Assembly: GCA_945862235.1 (NCBI GenBank)
Contig: CAMAYU010000054.1
Span: forward strand, 1-32,850
Direction: 5' to 3'
DNA from: Schlesneria paludicola DSM 18645
GTDB taxonomy: Bacteria > Planctomycetota > Planctomycetia > Planctomycetales > Planctomycetaceae
DNA length: 32,850 bases
Shown: piece by piece, positions 2,428 through 23,525 of the stretch
How positions within the stretch are numbered: position 1 is the stretch's first letter
Layout of the letters: each line of letters starts with the position of its first letter
The notes under the pieces: model-generated
What the model saw: the letters and a program-made list of their open reading frames with translations, nothing else
The model's database searches: none
What the model was told of the DNA's origin: nothing
Position numbers and translations under genes: made by a program

Positions 2428-3402
2428 ATGTCTGCGCGATTTCGAGTCCTCATCACGGACCGGGCTTGGCCGGACACCTCGGTCGAGAGCGATCTCCTCT
2501 CGCGCATCGGGGCGGATGTTGTGGAATCTGCCTCGACGGATGAAGCGGCTCTTGTGGCAGCGGCCTCGGACGTGGATGCCATCGCGACAAACTGGGCCTG
2601 CGTGACGGAGGCCGTGATGCGGGCGAGTGGCCGGTGTCGGACGGTCGCTCGGTTTGGGATCGGCGTGGACAATATCGCCGTCTCGGCCGCGACGGCACTT
2701 GGGATTCCTGTCACGAACTGCCCGGACTATTGCGTGGGCGAGGTCTCCGATCACGCGCTCGGGTTGCTACTCGCATGTGCCCGGCGGATCGGGTTCTTTC
2801 ACGGTCGCACCAAGCGTGGTGAGTACAAACTCGCTGCCGTGCGACCGATGCAGCGGATCGTCGGGCAAACGTTGGGGCTACTCGGGCTGGGGCACATCGC
2901 GCGGGAGTTGGTTCCGAAAGCGCGGGCACTTGGTCTGAACGTCATTGCGCACACGGCGAGTGGCCGCGACTATGGGACCCGCGTGCGGATGGTCTCCTTT
3001 CCCGAGTTGCTTGCGTCGAGCGACTACCTGTCGGTCCATGCTCCGCTGAATGACTCGACCCGTCGCCTGTTTGATGCGGCGGCGTTGGCTCAGATGAAGC
3101 CGACCGCGTATCTCATCAACACGTCGCGCGGCGGACTGATTGATGAGGTGGCGTTGTGGGACGCCTTACAGCGGGATCAGCTCGCGGGGGCGGCGCTCGA
3201 TGTCTTCGAGCCTGAGCCGCCCGATTTGTCGCGACCGCTGTTTCAAGACGAGCGAGTCATCGTCACGCCACATGCGGCGTTCGTCTCCGAGCAATCGGTG
3301 CGGCAACTGCGAGTGCAGGCGATGGAGCAAGTGGTCGCGGTTCTGGAAGGCCGTCGCCCGAACAACGTGCTCAACCCGCAAATCTATTCTGTTCAGCCTT
3401 GA
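2428..3402 (+). CDS. D-2-hydroxyacid dehydrogenase (CtBP/phosphoglycerate dehydrogenase-like)
   Basis: This 324-residue protein is an NAD(P)-dependent D-isomer specific 2-hydroxyacid dehydrogenase. The central Rossmann nucleotide-binding motif LLGLGHIARELV lies at 151-162. The catalytic triad of the family is present: Arg234 in NTSRGGLIDE, Glu263 in DVFEPEPP and His282 in TPHAAF. The length fits the short, single-domain-pair members; the ACT or regulatory domains of long SerA enzymes are absent. A serC gene occurs 24 kb away, but the two are not linked, so serine synthesis is only one possible role; substrate cannot be deduced. ATG at 2428 has GAGG at 2414-2417. It stands alone between two hairpin elements. 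Confidence 0.88.
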   Translation: MSARFRVLITDRAWPDTSVESDLLSRIGADVVESASTDEAALVAAASDVDAIATNWACVTEAVMRASGRCRTVARFGIGVDNIAVSAATALGIPVTNCPDYCVGEVSDHALGLLLACARRIGFFHGRTKRGEYKLAAVRPMQRIVGQTLGLLGLGHIARELVPKARALGLNVIAHTASGRDYGTRVRMVSFPELLASSDYLSVHAPLNDSTRRLFDAAALAQMKPTAYLINTSRGGLIDEVALWDALQRDQLAGAALDVFEPEPPDLSRPLFQDERVIVTPHAAFVSEQSVRQLRVQAMEQVVAVLEGRRPNNVLNPQIYSVQP

Positions 3403-3502
3403 TCGTTGCCGTTCTCCCATTGGGCGCGACGCTCTCGCCGTCGCACCACCGCTTCGTGAGCTAGCGTTCTCCTCAGACAGCACTGCGGAACGATCTGCCA
3501 AT

Positions 3503-3566
3503 CGAAGCCTGACGCGCGAGCGAAGGATCGGTGGCCGTGCGTGCTTCGCTTGCGCGTCAGGCTTCG
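3503..3566. repeat. 23-bp inverted repeat
   Basis: Arms 3503-3525 and 3544-3566 are reverse complements with one mismatch and an 18-nt loop. It sits between the dehydrogenase gene and the coiled-coil gene, 100 bases after the former's stop codon. No T run follows, so it is listed as a palindromic element rather than as a classical terminator. Confidence 0.85.
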
Positions 3567-3609
3567 GTGAGCCTGCGTCGTTTTGTCGCTCGCTTAAAGG
3601 ATTCCGATC

Positions 3610-4872
3610 GTGGGCGCCCGCCACTCTCGTTCCAAAAACATGGCCAATTCCTTCGAAGGGGTGGCCGCAAACGCCGTCGCGGTGACGGAGGACCTGTCGT
3701 TGGAATTCGGTTCCACGAACATGACTGTTCAAGAGAAAGCCACCGACGATTCGTTGTTCGTGCAATTTGAAACGGACGACGCTCCTTCAAGTGACGAGCA
3801 GGTTTCGCTGGCGTTGACCGAAGCGTCTGCCGCATCTCAGACGTTCGACGCTCCCTCTGTCGATGAACTCGATGGCCTGCGCGAACAACTCGACGGCAAG
3901 GACGAATTGATTTCGGCACTGGTCGTCGAATTGGAAAAAGTTGTCGAGCAACTCGATCGGCTGCAGCGCAGCGGTGGCGAACGACCGCGCGGGTCGGGAA
4001 GTTTCACGGCGTCGAGCGGATCAAAACTGTCACCGGAAGCTGCGGAGGAACAGCAGCAAATCTTCGGTGATCTTCAACGTTTTGTGCAGCAGTGGGACGA
4101 GCTTCAGCCAGCCAGTGTGCTGGGGCGGATCGAGTCTGAATTGGCTGCGATGCGTTCACTGATGACGCACGGTTCCCATTCGCTCGCCCCGCTCGACGCC
4201 TTGACCCGCGAGCAGTTGGACGCGACCAGCGGCTTGGACGGCGTGCTCGCGCGGCTGGCCATCGAGACACCTGATCGCGTGCGAACGGAGTCTCCCACTG
4301 CCGGTTCGAGTTGGGAATCGATGAAGCGGCAGATGCTTGGAGAGGACAACACCGCAGTCGTTGAGGAACACGAAACGGCCGTCGCCTACTTGGATGATCG
4401 GCCGATCGAAAGGACATCGTCCTGCGACGATGAACTTTCACTCGAGCGTTACACCGGACTCCTTGCGGTCGATCTCGACGCGGCCACGCGCGAAGAGTTG
4501 CAGGCCGCTTGCGCCGATCGAGACGCAGCCATCGTGCAACTCACACGCTTGTTGCGATCGCACAACAACGTCGAGTTACCCGCCGATTGGAGTGACATCG
4601 CGGGTATCCCAGATGAAGTGAAAAGTCGTGCCGATCAACTGGTGTCACGTTTGGAGAAGCAGGTCCAACTGGCCGAGGTGGAACTGTCCTTGGATCGGGC
4701 GCGGCTGTCTCGCGAGCGGAGTCAGGTGCAGGCCGAACGAGCCACCATCGACCGGCATCTCAAACGCCTCGGTCTCAGTTCACTCGACGAGTTGGAGAAC
4801 ATCGCCGTCGAAAGCGGTTCGGCATCGGATCGGCGCTGGATGCGATTCTTGGGCGTGAACCGCCGGTCGTGA
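3610..4872 (+). CDS. coiled-coil protein of unknown function
   Basis: I do not recognise a family for this 420-residue protein. It is acidic, lacks a signal peptide and membrane segments, and has two heptad-rich stretches: residues about 85-120 (DELDGLREQLDGKDELISAL and onward) and about 335-390 (QLVSRLEKQVQLAEVELSLD and onward). The middle, about 120-335, is low in hydrophobic residues and Ser/Glu-rich. The C-terminus is short and basic. It is likely cytoplasmic and structural or regulatory, which is inference from composition only. The GTG start at 3610 is preferred because AAAGGA at 3596-3601 lies 8 nt upstream; the in-frame ATG at 3640 has no Shine-Dalgarno sequence. The gene faces a minus-strand lipoprotein gene with only 16 bases between stop codons. 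Confidence 0.8.
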   Translation: MGARHSRSKNMANSFEGVAANAVAVTEDLSLEFGSTNMTVQEKATDDSLFVQFETDDAPSSDEQVSLALTEASAASQTFDAPSVDELDGLREQLDGKDELISALVVELEKVVEQLDRLQRSGGERPRGSGSFTASSGSKLSPEAAEEQQQIFGDLQRFVQQWDELQPASVLGRIESELAAMRSLMTHGSHSLAPLDALTREQLDATSGLDGVLARLAIETPDRVRTESPTAGSSWESMKRQMLGEDNTAVVEEHETAVAYLDDRPIERTSSCDDELSLERYTGLLAVDLDAATREELQAACADRDAAIVQLTRLLRSHNNVELPADWSDIAGIPDEVKSRADQLVSRLEKQVQLAEVELSLDRARLSRERSQVQAERATIDRHLKRLGLSSLDELENIAVESGSASDRRWMRFLGVNRRS

Positions 4873-4888
4873 GGCGAGGTGTGCAGCG

Positions 4889-6073
4889 CTACCGCGATCG
4901 TCTGGCCGGTGCCGCTTCGTCGGCATATCCGGTCTGCTGGATGGCCGACTCTGGCGATGACGAGCCTGACTGGCGACTGGCCGTCTGGTCGAGAAATGCG
5001 CTGACCGAAGTCAGTGTTTCCTTGCGCTGCATGATCTCGGAGCCATCGGCTAACTGAACGGACATTTCGAGATAGCGATTCATTTGCGAATTGGTGGGCA
5101 GCCCGGTTCGTCGGTCGACCTTGCACGTCCCGTGGCAATGGCCACCGCGGACGAACACGCGCATCTCGCGGTCTGCATCACGAACCACTGTCGGCACTTT
5201 GTCGCCCAAAATGTTGCCTACGAGGCTGATCTCGGCGGTGGTCTCGGTGAGACCATCAAGGACACAGCGCGTGTTGACCTGTACGGGAATCGGGCCTTCG
5301 GTGCGGCGCGGCTTCAAATCCCACGACTGGCCCACCTTCACGGCAACGGCAGGACTCGTCGGGTCGTTGCTGTAAGGCAGTAATCCGATCCCGTCATCGA
5401 CGAAGTTGGCGAGATCATGCTCGCTGTGAACTCCTTCGAGTTGTTGCAGCACCGAGGAGCGAAGGTGTGACGGCACATCCTTCACGCAGCGTTGAAGGAA
5501 CTCAGCAAAGCCAATCAACTGCTCGACCCTGTTGTCGGGTCCGATCCAAAATGAGAAGCCGTTCTCGTTCAATCCCGCGTAGGCGAGGGCTTCCGGTGGG
5601 ATCGGCTGCTGCGGCGAAGCGTCTGACGAGTATTCGACGTTCTTCCCGGCGATGTCGTGCGAATAACGGATGCGGTGATAACGAACGCCCAGCCGTTTGT
5701 GGCCGTCACGCACTTCTTCGACGCTCAGCGACAGGAGCATCTCCGCCAGCGATCGATAGACCGAGATTTCGCGACCGACGGCTTGAGTCAGCCGCTGTTC
5801 GACACGCTTCGTCAACGGGAAGCGATCCCCGACCTTGAGCTTCAGTTCCAGCTCGGCCGCAGTCGGCACCTCGTCCGACTTCTTGCCGTCGCCATCGACC
5901 AGTTCATCTCCCTCACCTTCCTCGTCGAGGTCTGCGAGGTCCGCGTCTAGGTCGGCCTTGCTCCCTTGGAAGTAGTTGCAACCGGGTAGCCCGACCAATA
6001 ACAAACCCGCCAGCGCGAACAACCGCAGCGTAGTGAACGGCATTTTGATGAACGGCACTGTCGAGAACAGCAT
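4889..6073 (-). CDS. lipoprotein of unknown function
   Basis: The 394-residue product has a lipoprotein signal peptide: a hydrophobic stretch at about 13-30 ending in the lipobox GLPGC with Cys32 as the lipidated residue, then an acidic linker (about 38-65, rich in Asp and Glu). The rest is a soluble domain that starts KLKVGDRFPLTKRVEQRLTQ and contains repeated beta-strand-like segments; this start resembles DUF6263-type planctomycete lipoproteins, but that assignment is tentative. Two His/Cys residues occur in GGHCHGTCKVDRRTG. The frame is open upstream to 6463, but ATG at 6073 has an AAGGAAGG on the minus strand 8 nt upstream, and the extension would run through a repeat element. It is transcribed divergently from the cyanophycinase-like gene. 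Confidence 0.8.
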   Translation of the reverse strand: MLFSTVPFIKMPFTTLRLFALAGLLLVGLPGCNYFQGSKADLDADLADLDEEGEGDELVDGDGKKSDEVPTAAELELKLKVGDRFPLTKRVEQRLTQAVGREISVYRSLAEMLLSLSVEEVRDGHKRLGVRYHRIRYSHDIAGKNVEYSSDASPQQPIPPEALAYAGLNENGFSFWIGPDNRVEQLIGFAEFLQRCVKDVPSHLRSSVLQQLEGVHSEHDLANFVDDGIGLLPYSNDPTSPAVAVKVGQSWDLKPRRTEGPIPVQVNTRCVLDGLTETTAEISLVGNILGDKVPTVVRDADREMRVFVRGGHCHGTCKVDRRTGLPTNSQMNRYLEMSVQLADGSEIMQRKETLTSVSAFLDQTASRQSGSSSPESAIQQTGYADEAAPARRSR

Positions 6074-6484: not shown

Positions 6485-8197
6485 ATGGTCGTCGTTCCCG
6501 CGAAGTCATTGGTTGTTTGTTCGTGTTCGTCGTGCCGTCACTGGCTCGCGCTGCGGTTCGCCGTTTTGTTCGGTGTCGCGTGGAGCGGGCTGTCGCTGGG
6601 ATCGCGTTCGCTGCAGGCTGAACATCTGTCAGCAGCGAACGAACTGCGCCCCGCCGGACCCGTGACGGGGGCGCTGTTGATTGCCGGTGGAGGAGGAATT
6701 CCCGTCGCGGTCCTCGATCGGTACTTCGAGTTGGCAGGAGGCGAGCAGTCGCGGATCGTCATCATCACGACGGCCAGCCAATTGGCGGGAACACCCGAAG
6801 CAGAGAAACGCTACGCGCACTGGCACGATCGCAAACCGGCCTCACTGACGTTCCTGCACACACGCGATCGATTGGAAGCGGATCGTGCGGAGTTCTCGAA
6901 AGTGCTGCTGGAAGCGAACGCCGTCTGGTTCATGGGAGGCAATCAAAACTGGCTGGCGGAAGCGTATCTCGGAACACTCGTCGAAGAACGCTGTCATGCC
7001 TTGTTGCGACGCGGCGGCGTGATCGGCGGATCGTCAGCCGGGGCGGCAATCATGTCGCGATCAATGATTGCGGGAGGGCGCGAGTTGCCCGTGATGGCGT
7101 CGGGATTCGGGTTCATGGAAGGGACGATCATCGACCAGCACTTCCGAAAGCGGAACCGGCAAGCTCGACTGATGCAGGCTCTCGAACTTCGGCCGGGGCT
7201 CGTCGGCATTGGCATCGACGAGGCGACGGCATTGGTTGTGCGCGGCCGGACTCTGGAAGTTGTGGGAGACTCCGATGTGACCATCGCTCTGGCTCCGTCA
7301 TCTGGGCGTGATGCACGAGTTCAGTCATTGGTCGCTGGCCAGAAGGACGATTTGGTGAAGCTCAGCCGCGCGGCGATCGCCCGCACGCGGCCCACCTTTC
7401 CGGCTCGACTGGCCCCGGTCCCGGAAGTCAAATCCGGAACGTTGGTCATCGTGGGAGGCGGCAATACACCGCGCGAAGCGGTCGATCAATTCCTCACGGC
7501 AGCCGGGGGCAAAGATGCGTCGATCATCGTCGTCTCGAACGCACTCGGTGAAGAACCGCCGGAAGAACAAAAGGTCTGCGGCTGGCTGAAAACGGCCGGA
7601 GCATCCAACGTGCATCAGGTCCACGCACGCACGGGCGACGATCTGGCCAGCCCCGAATTGCAGTCTCGAATCCAGACCGCAAAGGGTGTCTGGTTCACAG
7701 GCGGTCGTCAGTGGCGGCTGGTCGATGCGTACCTCGACACGCCTGTTCAATGCCTGTTTCAAGCCGTGCTGAATCGCGGCGGCGTCATCGGCGGGACATC
7801 GGCGGGAGCCACGATTCAGGGCGATTACCTCGTGCGCGGCAATCCGATGGGCAACGAAGACATGATGGCCGAAGGCTATGAACGCGGCTTCGGGTTTCTG
7901 CCTGGCGTCGCCATCGACCAGCACTTCACGCAGCGGTCACGCTTCGGTGACATGACCGGCTTGAAGAAGGCGTTTCCGCAACTGATCGGCATCGGCGTTG
8001 ATGAGGCCACCGCCCTGATCGTGCGCGGCACGATGATGGAAGTCGTCGGCCAGAGCCAAGTCGCCGTGTTCGACCGTCAGCCGAACGATCCCGACACCGA
8101 GCCTGAATACGAAGTGGTCAAAGCGGGTCAGAAGTACGACTTCAAACAGCGTCGCCTGATGGACTCGGCTGAAGTCCAAACCATCGAAACGAAGTGA
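6485..8197 (+). CDS. tandem-domain cyanophycinase-like serine peptidase (family S51), exported
   Basis: The 570-residue protein consists of an N-terminal hydrophobic segment (about 20-42, probable signal peptide or anchor) and two consecutive S51/cyanophycinase domains, about 60-290 and 317-550. Each repeats the same landmarks: an opening beta-strand LLIAGGGG (64-71) or LVIVGGGN (320-327), a VWFMGG or VWFTGG strand, the nucleophile elbow GGSSAGA with Ser184 or GGTSAGA with Ser439, the DQHF segment at 217-220 and 478-481, and a GIGIDEATALVVRG or GIGVDEATALIVRG segment. Both active sites look intact. Cyanophycinases cleave beta-Asp-Arg dipeptides from cyanophycin; exported relatives act on unknown peptides. 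No cyanophycin synthetase is nearby. ATG at 6485 has GAGGAG at 6469-6474. Single-domain members are about half this length, so this is a fused duplication. Confidence 0.88.
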   Translation: MVVVPAKSLVVCSCSSCRHWLALRFAVLFGVAWSGLSLGSRSLQAEHLSAANELRPAGPVTGALLIAGGGGIPVAVLDRYFELAGGEQSRIVIITTASQLAGTPEAEKRYAHWHDRKPASLTFLHTRDRLEADRAEFSKVLLEANAVWFMGGNQNWLAEAYLGTLVEERCHALLRRGGVIGGSSAGAAIMSRSMIAGGRELPVMASGFGFMEGTIIDQHFRKRNRQARLMQALELRPGLVGIGIDEATALVVRGRTLEVVGDSDVTIALAPSSGRDARVQSLVAGQKDDLVKLSRAAIARTRPTFPARLAPVPEVKSGTLVIVGGGNTPREAVDQFLTAAGGKDASIIVVSNALGEEPPEEQKVCGWLKTAGASNVHQVHARTGDDLASPELQSRIQTAKGVWFTGGRQWRLVDAYLDTPVQCLFQAVLNRGGVIGGTSAGATIQGDYLVRGNPMGNEDMMAEGYERGFGFLPGVAIDQHFTQRSRFGDMTGLKKAFPQLIGIGVDEATALIVRGTMMEVVGQSQVAVFDRQPNDPDTEPEYEVVKAGQKYDFKQRRLMDSAEVQTIETK

Positions 8198-8375: not shown

Positions 8376-9491
8376 TCACCGCGTGACGATTGGCCCGGTA
8401 TCGACGACCTCAAAGTCGCGGACCTTCACTCGCTTCAAGGTCGAGATCGCGTCGTCGTCCCACCGCGCATCGGGGGCACCGCTGACGAACCAGTCGCCGC
8501 CGTTGTCGGCCAGCAACATGCCGTAGGTCTTGAGACCTTGCAGTAAGACCTGAGACAGCCGAGGGAACTTGCTGGTGTCGAAGCTCGCTTTCAGTCGGAC
8601 GCGCATTCCCATCGGAGGGAGGTTGGGACTGGTTGAGTTGCTGGCGAAGTGCCTCGCGGGCAAGACGTAAGCGCGTTGAGTCCTCTTCACTGTGAACCGC
8701 AGGGCGTGTTGCAGCTTGCCGAGTTCGACGATCTCGTCATAGCGGGCTAGCCCCGGAAAGATCGGCAGCCCGGCCGCATCGGCCGAGGTCCAACCGGCCG
8801 GTCGCAGCGCATTGCTGCTCAGGTCGAAGATCGCTCCCGAGCCAGCCTTCCACTTGCCGCCCGGCAGCGAATGAACTTGGTACAGCTCGTACAGCTTCTT
8901 GTTCTTCGCGTCGATCATCAGAACGTGACGATCGGCATCGGCGGGCGCGTGCGATCCCCCTTCGATCGGTGGGTTGGGGGGGATCGGGTACGGCCCGACA
9001 TCGCTCTCGTCGGAGTACTCGAACTGCACGGCGGACTTCATTTGAGTCGGCGACACCGCGACGAACGGGATGCCGTTCGGGACTCCCTTCCAAACCGTGC
9101 CGAAGTCGGGATGCAGCGGCTTGTCCAAGCCAACCGACTGCAGCCACGCTTCCGACTTCGCATGCAGCTTGAGGTGTGAAACATTGCGATTCCAGGCATT
9201 GTCTGCGGGAAAGATCGCGACTTCACCGTAGGGTGTCGTCAGCATGGGCAACTTGGCCTGCGCATCGACAACGGCCGCATCCTGACCCAAAACCTGCGAG
9301 CCAAATCTCGACAAGCAAAGCAGCGAGACCATCGCTAAAGCGAGCGGGAAGAATTGTCTGCCCCCTACCAACCCGAAGTGCGAACGAGAACGCCGATCGA
9401 CTTCGCCCTCGTTCACACTTCGGGTTGGTGTCTTCGGGTAAACCACTTCTTGCCGCTCGCTTAATGACGATCTCTGAGTGAGCCGACTCAT
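8376..9491 (-). CDS. conserved secreted protein of unknown function
   Basis: The 371-residue product has a hydrophobic signal segment at about 47-63 (FFPLALAMVSLLCLSRFGSQ) and a single extracytoplasmic domain. Distinctive conserved-looking blocks are DNAWNRNVS, LHPDFGTVW, GIPFVAVSP, DVGPYPIPPNPPIEGG, DRHVLMIDAKNKKLYELYQV, SSNALRPAGWTSADAAGLP, ALRFTVKRTQRAYVLPARH and MLLADNGGDW. I recall similar proteins from diverse bacteria but no functional name. The ATG at 9491 has AGAGGTG on the minus strand, whereas the in-frame ATG at 9332 just before the hydrophobic segment has none, so I take the longer form. This makes residues about 21-42 the translation of a dispersed inverted repeat (9367-9429), an unusual n-region for a signal peptide. 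Confidence 0.8.
   Translation of the reverse strand: MSRLTQRSSLSERQEVVYPKTPTRSVNEGEVDRRSRSHFGLVGGRQFFPLALAMVSLLCLSRFGSQVLGQDAAVVDAQAKLPMLTTPYGEVAIFPADNAWNRNVSHLKLHAKSEAWLQSVGLDKPLHPDFGTVWKGVPNGIPFVAVSPTQMKSAVQFEYSDESDVGPYPIPPNPPIEGGSHAPADADRHVLMIDAKNKKLYELYQVHSLPGGKWKAGSGAIFDLSSNALRPAGWTSADAAGLPIFPGLARYDEIVELGKLQHALRFTVKRTQRAYVLPARHFASNSTSPNLPPMGMRVRLKASFDTSKFPRLSQVLLQGLKTYGMLLADNGGDWFVSGAPDARWDDDAISTLKRVKVRDFEVVDTGPIVTR
9367..9429. repeat. 22-bp inverted repeat inside the 5' coding part of a gene
   Basis: Arms 9367-9388 and 9408-9429 are reverse complements with one mismatch and a 19-nt loop. The element lies between the likely ribosome binding site and the signal-peptide-coding part of the minus-strand secreted-protein gene, and is read in frame as TPTRSVNEGEVDRRSRSHFG. 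The words around gcgggttggtgt in its neighbourhood also appear in the gap upstream of groEL1 (about 17440), suggesting a dispersed family. Confidence 0.8.
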
Positions 9492-9668
9492 GAAAACACC
9501 TCTTGGAATTACGGTACATCTCCCACGAGCGCGGAGACTATCGGCGGACGGAGCCAGCAACAATGGGCCGGTTTGCATCCGCGGTTCTCCACCGAGCGTT
9601 CTTCGGGGCATGCCAACTCATTCATCAAAACTTTCGATGCTGGAATCTGACCAACAAACGGGGGCGCA

Positions 9669-17307: not shown

Positions 17308-19448
<2,141 letters not shown>

Positions 19449-19935: not shown

Positions 19936-20012
19936 AGTGGATGGTGGGTAGTGGATAGATTCCCCTATCAAGCGTCCTCTGGCTACCCACCGCCCACTAT
20001 TGACCATCCACT
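19936..20012. repeat. nested inverted repeat in the groES-groEL2 gap
   Basis: An outer 10-bp arm at 19936-19945 (agtggatggt) pairs with 20003-20012, and an inner 9-bp arm at 19943-19951 pairs with 19983-19991, with further degenerate gtagtgg words between. The repeat fills the gap up to 13 bases before the groEL2 Shine-Dalgarno sequence. Confidence 0.55.
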
Positions 20013-20035
20013 CGTTTTCTCCACAGGAGCCTCTC

Positions 20036-21652
20036 GTGGCTAAGCAACTGTTGTTCGATGATCGTGCTCGGCTGAAGCTGCAACGTGGCGTTGAGACGCT
20101 GGCGAAGGCTGTCGCCGTGACGATGGGTCCCACCGGTCGAAACGTCATCATCGACAAGTCGTTCGGGAACCCGGTCGTGACCAAGGACGGTGTGACCGTC
20201 TCGAAGGAAGTTGAACTCGAAGACGCCTACGAACACATGGGCGCGAAGCTCGTGAACGAAGTCGCCTCCAAGACGAGCGACATCGCTGGCGACGGCACAA
20301 CGACCGCTACGGTTCTCGCCCGGGCGATTTATAGCGAAGGACTTCGCGGTCTGACGCTGGGAGCCAACCCGACGATCGTCCGCAAGGGGATCGAAAAGGC
20401 TGTCGATGCGGCCATTCAAGCGATCGAGAAGATGGCCAAGCCTGTCTCGTCGAAAGAAGAGATCGCTCAAGTCGGTGCCATCTCGGCCAACAACGATCGC
20501 ACGATTGGTGACTTGATTGCCGATGCGATGGAGAAGGTCGGTCGTGACGGTGTCATCACTGTTGAGGAAGGCAAAGGGAACTCAACGACGTTGCAAACCG
20601 CTGAAGGAATGCAGTTCGACAAGGGCTACATTTCGCCGTACTTGGTCACTCATCCCGAAGAGATGAAGTGCATTCTCGACGACTGCTACATCCTGCTGTT
20701 CGAGAAGAAGATTTCGAGCCTCCGCGATTTCGTGCCGATCCTCGAAAAGGTCGCTCAACGCAGCAAACCGCTGCTCGTCGTCGCCGAAGATATCGACGGC
20801 GAAGCGTTGACGGCCTTGGTCGTCAACAAGCTGCGTGGAGTCCTCCAAATTTGTGCCGTGAAGGCACCCGGATTTGGTGATCGCCGTAAGGCGATGATGG
20901 GCGACATGGCGACGCTGACCGGTGGAACGCTGATCTCGGAAGACCTCGGCATCAAGCTGGAGTCGGTCGAACTCAGCCATCTCGGTCGTGCGAAGAAGAT
21001 CGAAGTAACGAAGGATGCCTGCACGATCATCGAAGGTGCTGGCGACTCCGCCGAGATTAAGGCTCGCGTCGATCAGATTCGTCGTCAGATTGAAGCGACC
21101 GAAAGCCAGTACGATCGTGAGAAGTTCCAAGAACGTCTTGCCAAGATCACCGGCGGCGTGGCGATCATCTCGGTCGGTGCCGCCACCGAAGCCGAAATGA
21201 AGCAGACCAAGGCCCGCATGGAAGATGCCCTGCACGCGACTCGCGCCGCCGTCGAAGAGGGAATCCTCCCCGGTGGTGGTGTGGCGTTGCTGCGAGCCAT
21301 CGAAGCGGTCAGTGAAGTGAAGGCCAAGGGGGACGAGAAGATCGGCGTTCAGATCGTCATCAAAGCGCTCGAAGCTCCGATCCGTCAGATCGTCAACAAC
21401 AGCGGCCTCGACGGCAGCGTGGTGGCCGACGAAGTTCGCAACATGGCGAAGAACACTGGCTACGATGCCAACAGCGGCAAGTACGTCGATATGTACAAGG
21501 CTGGCATCATCGACCCCGCCAAGGTCGTGAAGAGTGCCCTTCGCAATGCGGCTTCCATCGCCGGACTGATGTTGACCACCTCGGTCCTCGTCACCCGTAG
21601 CGATGACACCGATGGCAATGCCAAGGGCAAGACCGAGGGGTCCGTGCGATAA
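20036..21652 (+). CDS. groEL: chaperonin GroEL, copy 2 (no GGM tail)
   Basis: This 538-residue paralogue keeps all core GroEL features: MGPTGRN near residue 30, [14 protein letters not shown] at about 85-98, [15 protein letters not shown] with the catalytic aspartate and [13 protein letters not shown]. It differs from copy 1 in its C-terminus, which ends [20 protein letters not shown], charged and without Gly-Gly-Met repeats. In other bacteria with two GroELs such divergence goes with different substrate sets; that is inference here. The GTG at 20036 is preferred over the first in-frame start at 20000 because AGGAG at 20025-20029 lies 6 nt upstream and the VAKQLLF start matches the family. 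A terminator hairpin at 21708-21735 closes the groE block. Confidence 0.95.
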
Positions 21653-22359: not shown

Positions 22360-22376
22360 CATTGAGCGGGGCCGCG

Positions 22377-23525
22377 ATGGCGACGATACGGTGTTATTAC
22401 GAGGTGCTGTCGGTCACGAAGACAGCGTCCGATGACGAGATCAAGAAGTCGTACCGCAAGCTGGCGGGGAAGCATCATCCCGACCGCAATCCGGGTGACG
22501 AGGCTGCGGTCGCGTTGTTCAAAGAAGCGGCGGAAGCCTTTGATGTTCTGAGCAATCCCGACAAGCGCTCGCGGTACGACCGCTTCGGTCACGCGGGTGT
22601 GCAAGGTGCGGCGGGAGGTGGCAGAGCCGGTGGCTTTGGCGATGTCGGCGACATCTTCGAAGCGTTCGGAGACATGTTTGGCGACATGCTCGGCGGCGGC
22701 GGCGGTGGTCGTCGGGGTGGAGGCTCACGCGGACGACGCGGCAACAGTTTGCAAACGTCGCTCACCGTGGAGCTGCTCGACGCGGCCGTCGGTTGTACGC
22801 GTGAAATCGAGATCGACAAGAACGTCTCGTGCATCACCTGCAAAGGGACAGGAGCCAAGCCGGGCACGAAGCCAACCAAGTGCGACTACTGCAACGGCAA
22901 GGGCCAGGTCATTCAGTCGCAGGGCTTCTTCCGCGTGCAGACGACTTGTCCCGCGTGTCGTGGTCAAGGCGATGTCGTTCGCGACAAGTGCGTTGATTGC
23001 CGAGGGACGAAGGTCGTGTCGCGGTCCTCTAAACTCGAAGTCAAAGTCCCGGCGGGGATCGACAACGGAATGCAGCTTTGTCTGCGCGGCGAGGGAGAGC
23101 CGGGCGAAGGGGGCGGACCACCGGGCGATCTTTACGTCGATGTCCGAGTGAAGTCGCATCCGTTGTTTGAACGAGATGGCAAGCATCTGACGTGTGAAGT
23201 TCCGATTACGTTTGCTCAAGCGGCGCTCGGCACGGAACTCGACATCCCGATCCTGACCGGCAAGCACCACATCGCGGTTCCAGCGGGGACTCAGCCTGGC
23301 GAAATCCTGCGGCTGCGAGGTCAGGGGATGCCCGACGTTCAAGGCGGAGCACGCGGCGACTTGCATGTGCAGTTCGATGTCGAAGTTCCCAAGAAACTCT
23401 CCAAGAAACAAGAAGAGTTACTCAGGCAACTGGCCGAACTCGACGACAAGCAAGTGAGTGCTCACCGCAAGTCGTTCTTCGAATCGGTGACGGAATTCTT
23501 CGGAACATCGAAACAGGAAGAGTGA
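22377..23525 (+). CDS. dnaJ: chaperone DnaJ
   Basis: DnaJ is the Hsp40 co-chaperone that loads substrates on DnaK and stimulates its ATPase. This 382-residue protein has the full type I layout: J domain at 6-72 with the HPD motif at 34-36, a Gly-rich linker (about 73-125, including LGGGGGGRRGGGSRGRRG), a zinc-finger region from Cys152 to about 212 with CITCKGTG, CDYCNGKG, CPACRGQG and CVDCRGTK, and the C-terminal substrate-binding domains. The fourth zinc motif lacks the last glycine of CxxCxGxG. ATG at 22377 is used; an in-frame TTG at 22362 is less likely. The grpE gene follows after 45 bases, but no dnaK is in the window. Confidence 0.95.
   Translation: MATIRCYYEVLSVTKTASDDEIKKSYRKLAGKHHPDRNPGDEAAVALFKEAAEAFDVLSNPDKRSRYDRFGHAGVQGAAGGGRAGGFGDVGDIFEAFGDMFGDMLGGGGGGRRGGGSRGRRGNSLQTSLTVELLDAAVGCTREIEIDKNVSCITCKGTGAKPGTKPTKCDYCNGKGQVIQSQGFFRVQTTCPACRGQGDVVRDKCVDCRGTKVVSRSSKLEVKVPAGIDNGMQLCLRGEGEPGEGGGPPGDLYVDVRVKSHPLFERDGKHLTCEVPITFAQAALGTELDIPILTGKHHIAVPAGTQPGEILRLRGQGMPDVQGGARGDLHVQFDVEVPKKLSKKQEELLRQLAELDDKQVSAHRKSFFESVTEFFGTSKQEE

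Follow-up and report, generated by a model that had tools for sequence, protein, structure and literature searches.

A probably exported planctomycete peptidase with two unlike S51 domains, one CphB-like and one of an Asp183 subtype

The window analyzed here, a 32,850-nucleotide stretch of DNA from Schlesneria paludicola DSM 18645, encodes a 570-residue chain in which two S51 peptidase domains are fused and in which the two active sites are unlike. The N-terminal domain (D1) is of the CphB type. As judged from its residues, the C-terminal domain (D2) is a separate S51 subtype in which Arg183 of CphB is replaced by Asp, along with other fixed changes. The features discussed below are as follows; all lie on the plus strand, and subtype residues are given in CphB numbering.

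6485..8197 (+), double S51 peptidase gene, 570 aa, stop codon included; open reading frame with PF03575 and TIGR02069 matches
6485..6619 (+), probable export signal, residues 1-45; read by eye
6665..7288 (+), D1, N-terminal S51 domain, CphB-type (QSDQHRRRE); alignment to CphB, VIA-align Z 31.4 against 7uqw_B
7034..7036, 7139..7141, and 7220..7222 (+), D1 nucleophile Ser184, His219, and Glu246; alignment and motif reading
7166..7168 (+), D1 Arg228, equivalent to CphB Arg183; alignment to CphB
7430..8077 (+), D2, C-terminal S51 domain, Asp183 subtype (QSDQHRRDE); alignment to CphB
7700..7720 (+), D2 motif GGRQWRL with subtype residues R100 and W102; alignment
7799..7801, 7922..7924, and 8003..8005 (+), D2 nucleophile Ser439, His480, and Glu507; alignment and motif reading
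7826..7855 (+), D2 motif YLVRGNPMGN with subtype residues Y141, R144 (Arg451), and N150; alignment
7949..7951 (+), D2 Asp489, equivalent in position to CphB Arg183; alignment to CphB

Profile matches place both domains in the S51 family. The Pfam model PF03575 (Peptidase_S51) matched two stretches of the protein (117.9 bits against a cut-off of 23.9, E 6.1e-34), as did the NCBIfam "cyanophycinase" model TIGR02069, which scored 264.8 bits for the whole protein and, with the domains scored singly, 142.9 bits for D1 and 128.1 bits for D2, all above its cut-off of 126.6. Of the Ser-His-Glu/Asp triad of S51 enzymes, D1 and D2 both have the Ser-His-Glu form. The first-pass annotation had described two fused S51 domains, each with GGxSAGA, DQHF, and GIGxDEATA segments, and every one of these motifs was found twice: GGSSAGA (7025-7045), DQHF (from 7133), and GIGIDEATA (7205-7231) in D1, and GGTSAGA (7790-7810), DQHF (from 7916), and GIGVDEATA (7988-8014) in D2. 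Since homologs covering most of its length occur in other planctomycete genomes, the two-domain open reading frame is not a chance occurrence. The idea that only one domain is alive was rejected for the window protein, in which both triads are present, though in relatives they often are not. A promoter and terminator scan gave no signal above that of shuffled sequence.

The difference between the domains lies in the substrate pocket. According to an extract of PMC3235067, which cites Law 2009, CphB depends critically on Gln101, Asp172, Gln173, Arg178, Arg180, and Arg183, which form a pocket beside Ser132. We read nine positions by alignment to CphB (Q101, S132, D172, Q173, H174, R178, R180, R183, and E201). 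D1 of the window protein reads QSDQHRRRE and is the same as CphB at all nine, hence at all six pocket positions; D2 reads QSDQHRRDE and matches at eight of nine and five of six, the sole change being Arg183 to Asp. The earlier description of two intact active sites thus stands as far as Ser, His, and Glu are concerned but not for the D2 pocket, which is not CphB-like (Asp489 for Arg183), and the notion of two equivalent cyanophycinase sites was rejected on the same ground.

The substitution is not peculiar to the window. Position 183 is Arg in 19/19 triad-intact D1 domains and in all 53 single-domain rows (52 from Planctomycetota plus CphB), which together make up 72 Arg183-type domains. It is Asp in 25/25 triad-intact D2 domains and in 3/3 stand-alone D2-like proteins; the six D2 domains with a broken triad have Asp in five cases and Gln in one. 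Further D2-specific residues are Arg100, Trp102, Tyr141 (Phe in two), Arg144, and Asn150, and the full set RW[YF]RND occurs in 26 of the 28 D2 domains with Ser and His retained; none of the 72 Arg183-type domains has it. These positions hold although the D2 domains of the 15 proteins with both triads intact differ from one another at approximately 44% of positions on average. The fixed residues were inherited within one clade, so that 25/25 does not amount to 25 independent events, and near-identical relatives (L010, L049, and L050; L053 and L054) inflate the counts. A weak alignment with Xenopus dipeptidase E, over a stretch that is not significant, pairs Asp183 of D2 with an Arg; were that alignment true, Asp183 would be unusual across S51 as a whole.

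Domains of this subtype also occur alone. A D2-profile search of 392 Planctomycetota genomes retrieved three single-domain Asp183 proteins with the full RW[YF]RND set (L093, L094, and L095), and a tblastn search of plasmids with the window protein retrieved a stand-alone S51 protein with the same six subtype residues on a Gemmatirosa kalamazoonensis plasmid (L124). In the latter, the frame at 2477-5461 continues from the Asp183-type S51 domain into a beta-lactamase-like stretch, a weak match of 23.5 bits that falls below the cut-off. The presence of these four proteins outside the fusion indicates, at the level of sequence, that the subtype either predates the fusion or extends beyond it. The plasmid search matched 26 records, 10 of which were examined; besides L124, these comprised eight single-domain proteins of the Arg183 type and one double, on a Cytobacillus spongiae plasmid (L132, 1372-3765), whose two S51 domains are both of the Arg183 type and whose first domain is split over two frames. 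Given this Arg183-type double, S51 doubling probably occurred more than once.

Trees support a single origin for D2 and are less tidy for D1. In a tree of 104 domains, D2 forms one clade (support 100/94) and D1 needs two changes. A second tree covered 75 domains, after eleven new rows had been added and 31 of 47 single-domain rows removed, along with nine fused-domain rows that were long or degenerate. D2 again forms one clade there (99/97), to which the stand-alone L093-L095 are sister (joined at 100/99); D1, with five single-domain Arg183-type proteins falling among its rows, does not form a tidy clade and needs four changes. One fusion of an Arg183-type gene with an Asp183-type gene, followed by some losses, appears to fit these trees best, although repeated fusions may be an alternative origin.

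To follow the two sites across the fusion, we took 36 long-frame or paired matches and four single-domain ones, leaving out five matches in frames above 480 aa (G044:C114, G353:C1:78508, G283:C1:4633665, G321:C1:3776980, and G038:C177). The proteins counted as fused number 31: the window protein, six close relatives from public contigs (L005-L010), and 24 from Planctomycetota genomes. With the triad scored strictly as Ser, His, and Glu, 15 proteins have both triads intact, four keep that of D1 only, 10 that of D2 only, and two neither (L073 and L078). Under this scoring, D2 of L008 counts as broken, although with Ser and His kept and Asp in place of Glu201 it might still work; likewise, D1 is counted as lost in L072, L073, L074, L078, and L080, where the N-terminal half does not align as a full domain. 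D1 keeps all nine CphB residues in 19 of the 31 proteins, the window protein among them, and four of these 19 have a broken D2. Among the 15 proteins with both triads intact, mean pairwise identity is 0.56 for D2 and 0.52 for D1, with D2 the higher in 78 of 105 pairs.

Domains without an intact triad often persist. In 13 of the 14 proteins with one broken triad, the domain with the broken triad remains recognizable at E <1e-5; the exception is L072, whose fusion is inferred from length and whose D1 reaches no better than E 0.2-0.3. Such persistence is expected where a chain requires its second domain for packing, and the pattern of one broken triad in 14 of 31 proteins hints that the second domain also serves in that way. 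Slow decay could instead account for the retained broken domains, a view favored for some lines by L073 and L078, in which neither triad is intact.

Structure prediction bears on the same point. An AlphaFold2 model of the mature two-domain chain, run with seven sequences, had a mean pLDDT of 81.7 and a pTM of 0.70. Its D1 superimposes on CphB (7uqw_B, Z 31.4, rmsd 1.7 over 231 residues; 3en0_B, Z 31.2), and the best Foldseek match of the full chain was likewise 3en0_B. The high-TM matches were single-domain S51 chains, with TM by target of 0.69-0.81 over the top 15 rows; two-domain KaiC chains, at E down to 6e-7, were set aside for a TM of approximately 0.2 and an rmsd of approximately 17. The S51 fold was compared with known structures for D1, and D2 shows secondary structure in the chain model. 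Folded alone, D2 gave a poor model (pLDDT 61.5); its region of the full-chain model averages a pLDDT of approximately 80, as taken from block values. For two equal domains, a pTM of 0.70 suggests that some relative placement of D1 and D2 is predicted. CphB is a dimer, and a covalent pseudo-dimer may be a reasonable model for the fused chain, given that predicted placement and the frequent retention of a domain with a broken triad.

The double S51 peptidase is probably exported. An export signal had been proposed ahead of the domains, and the N-terminus of the window protein, read by eye, looks like one: Arg19 is followed by a hydrophobic run (approximately residues 20-39), and a cleavage site may lie behind SLQA, at residue 45. 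For the window protein and 30 relatives, we also picked out the 15-mer of highest hydrophobicity N-terminal to the first recognized domain, a crude measure that has no control and always returns some 15-mer. In most relatives, this segment lies within approximately 30-65 residues of D1, a position that would suit a signal peptide. For the window protein, the chosen 15-mer spans the start codon, that for L081 lies inside a redoxin domain, and for L072 and L074 the distance was measured to D2, as D1 is unrecognized there. The other two S51 proteins of the host (L004 on contig C5 and L002 on contig C6) also appear signal-like at the N-terminus by eye; as each of the three S51 proteins found in the genome looks signal-like there, no obvious cytoplasmic cyanophycinase stands beside its two synthetases.

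Those synthetases bear on a further claim of the first-pass annotation, that no cyanophycin synthetase is nearby. This holds for the window and for its contig (C54), on which no synthetase match was found, but not for the genome, which carries two adjacent CphA genes on another contig (C50, 10568-16108; L041 and L042), scoring 988 and 906 bits against a cut-off of 850. Four genomes that share the host's family label (G216, G283, G321, and G373) likewise carry closely paired CphA copies; the other 43 genomes with CphA have one match each. In addition to the window gene and the two further S51 genes, the host genome encodes two proteins over the cut-off for PF01112 (Asparaginase_2, IaaA type), which are of the isoaspartyl-peptidase type; no IadA scored over the cut-off, the one weak match in this genome reaching 23.1 bits. 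An absence of cyanophycin metabolism in the organism was accordingly rejected, there being two CphA and two Asparaginase_2 genes. From its two CphA genes, the bacterium probably makes cyanophycin, and any of its three S51 proteins could degrade it. An extract of PMC10206079 reports that CphA and cyanophycinase genes are clustered in 81% of genomes having both, that a recognizable cyanophycinase is present in only 2.8% of beta-proteobacteria with CphA, and that cyanophycin scavengers without CphA are known.

The double is widespread in the phylum. The 392 genomes surveyed represent an even draw from a larger Planctomycetota group, and 133 of them had a TIGR02069 S51 match at E <=0.001. At least 26 carry a fused or D2-clade gene, and in 23 of the 26 two domains were at least weakly seen; in G257 and G281 the gene is cut by the contig end, and in G016 the N-terminal half is unrecognizable. 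These genes fall under at least 11 family labels (f1, f2, f4, f12, f21, f34, f48, f50, f52, f55, and f70), or 10 without G016. The architecture is therefore not unique to the window, an idea that was rejected in view of double proteins in many other planctomycete genomes. The premise of a single S51 domain per chain in known cyanophycinases stands for CphB and CphE, whereas doubles are frequent in uncharacterized Planctomycetota. CphA (E <=1e-150) was found in 48 of the 392 genomes, namely in 9 of the 26 with a fused or D2-clade gene versus 39 of the 366 others (Fisher p 0.002, uncorrected for kinship); one of the nine, in G353, is below the curated cut-off.

The genes surrounding the double point to no consistent functional link. 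In L005-L008, four of the six close relatives, a MoxR-type ATPase gene on the same strand lies directly 3' of the double; in the window, it lies 1.5 kb downstream, with a 411-residue open frame without a Pfam match (8376-9611, minus strand) between the two, and L010, L104, and L105 have a related ATPase upstream that is encoded on the other strand. Near the double, L110 (G369), L119 (G016), and L121 (G361) encode a large AhpC-TSA (redoxin) protein, and in L081 (G315) a redoxin domain shares its open frame. One neighbor family appeared in 6 of 27 loci and adjoins the double in only some of them; the two members scanned were sulfatases. No cyanophycin gene was seen beside the double in the close relatives. 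Elsewhere in the window, two Cpn60 chaperonin genes and a DnaJ gene lie in a row (17760-19448, 20000-21652, and 22362-23525).

Taken with the probable export, the pocket residues lead us to favor, with slightly more belief than doubt, an exported serine peptidase in which D1 acts as an exo-cyanophycinase, D2 takes another aspartyl or isoaspartyl substrate, and the two domains pack in the manner of the CphB dimer. D1 would work outside the cytoplasm, cutting cyanophycin from the chain end and releasing beta-Asp-Arg dipeptides. D2 would apply the same chemistry to a different aspartyl or isoaspartyl substrate because the charge of its pocket is reversed, and D1 and D2 would pack like two CphB protomers, each serving as the dimer partner of the other. 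PepE and MccG provide precedents within S51 for a shift in substrate and, by extension, for D2 acting on another aspartyl-linked compound. The earlier suggestion of a different isoaspartyl substrate is more likely to apply to D2 than to D1.

Several competing accounts fit part of these data. One, in which D2 is the main enzyme, with an unfamiliar substrate, and D1 is a cyanophycinase leftover retained chiefly for its structural role as a partner, is unlikely. In its favor, the D1 triad was lost more often than that of D2 (10 versus 4 of 31), D2 is slightly more conserved in identity (higher in those 78 pairs), and Asp183-type domains are also found alone. Weighing against a leftover D1 is its full set of nine residues in 19 of 31 proteins, four with a broken D2, which argues that D1 is under selection in many lines. 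A plain doubled cyanophycinase, in which the two sites are equally active on cyanophycin and fusion does no more than hold the dimer together and boost local activity, seems rather improbable to us. Both domains do exceed the TIGR02069 cut-off, and D2 keeps eight of the nine residues, but the one that it lacks, Arg183, is reported as critical for CphB (extract of PMC3235067), and Asp is fixed there in triad-intact D2 and in the stand-alone relatives, together with the other subtype changes, against Arg in 19/19 triad-intact D1.

The remaining account, which we rate lowest, dispenses with cyanophycin altogether: both domains would cut other aspartyl or isoaspartyl bonds, such as those in isomerized protein ends, peptide-nucleotides, or other exported peptides. 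In its favor, no CphA at E <=1e-150 was found in 17 of the 26 genomes with a fused or D2-clade gene, the window contig has no synthetase match, and S51 also holds PepE and MccG (extract of PMC9239234). Against it, D1 retains 9/9 CphB residues, the same scavengers noted above live without CphA (extract of PMC10206079), and fused genes are commoner in genomes with CphA, a trend that is uncorrected for kinship. Within the favored reading of an exo-cyanophycinase joined to a site of other specificity, a bolder version can be framed, although we regard it as doubtful: the Asp183 subtype would be a new S51 specificity class, with D1 freeing beta-Asp-Arg outside the cytoplasm and D2 splitting it to aspartate and arginine. 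The acid in the D2 pocket could then hold the free alpha-amino group of beta-Asp-Arg. If true, one exported chain would carry out a breakdown that otherwise needs two separate enzymes.

These observations matter beyond the single gene. The current NCBIfam model names the Asp183 subtype a cyanophycinase though its substrate pocket has changed in a fixed way. Asp489, Arg451, and the GGRQW segment offer concrete residues for examining how S51 enzymes tell alpha-linked, beta-linked, and polymer-linked aspartate apart, and the natural fusions that have lost either site are ready controls for the need for a partner domain. Planctomycetes often live with cyanobacteria, and an exported cyanophycinase would be ecologically interesting in light of that association.

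Among characterized enzymes, the closest counterpart is CphB of Synechocystis (PDB 3en0 and 7uqw; MEROPS S51), with which the fused protein shares the fold (D1), the Ser-His-Glu triad, and nine (D1) or eight (D2) of the nine residues. CphB differs in having one domain per chain, an intracellular location (extract of PMC10206079), and Arg183, where D2 of the fused protein has Asp183 and the RW-Y-R-N set. Like the extracellular CphE of Pseudomonas, the fused protein is an S51 enzyme, one that is probably exported, and CphE sets a precedent for cyanophycin breakdown outside the cell; CphE is encoded by a 1260-bp gene and has one triad, with Arg233 as the equivalent of Arg183 and Thr in place of Gln173 (extract of PMC3235067 in each case). 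PepE, or dipeptidase E, has the same S51 fold (Z approximately 17-22 for D1) and, unlike the fused protein, a single domain. PepE is cytoplasmic. The PepE model NF003642 scores D2 higher than D1 (32.7 versus 19.2 bits; 45.3 for the whole protein), all far below its cut-off of 156. An extract of PMC9239234 places within S51 both PepE, which acts on Asp-X dipeptides, and MccG, an isoaspartyl-nucleotide hydrolase of clade V. The stand-alone proteins L093-L095 and L124 share the six-residue subtype set of D2 and have no D1 partner in frame. In the open-access literature, where several searches were broad and only the best rows were considered, no description was found of a two-domain chain that pairs a standard site with an Asp183-type one; nor was the Asp183 subtype described in the open-access literature searched, a body that leaves subscription papers mostly uncovered. 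An extract of PMC13190842 says that a planctomycete genome encodes cyanophycinase enzymes, with no architecture given in that text, and one of PMC6243061 reports on an S51 protein that carries a Por secretion domain and is not a double. The S51 family, its chemistry, and an exported cyanophycinase (CphE) are already known, and the two-domain chain with unlike sites appears to be new.
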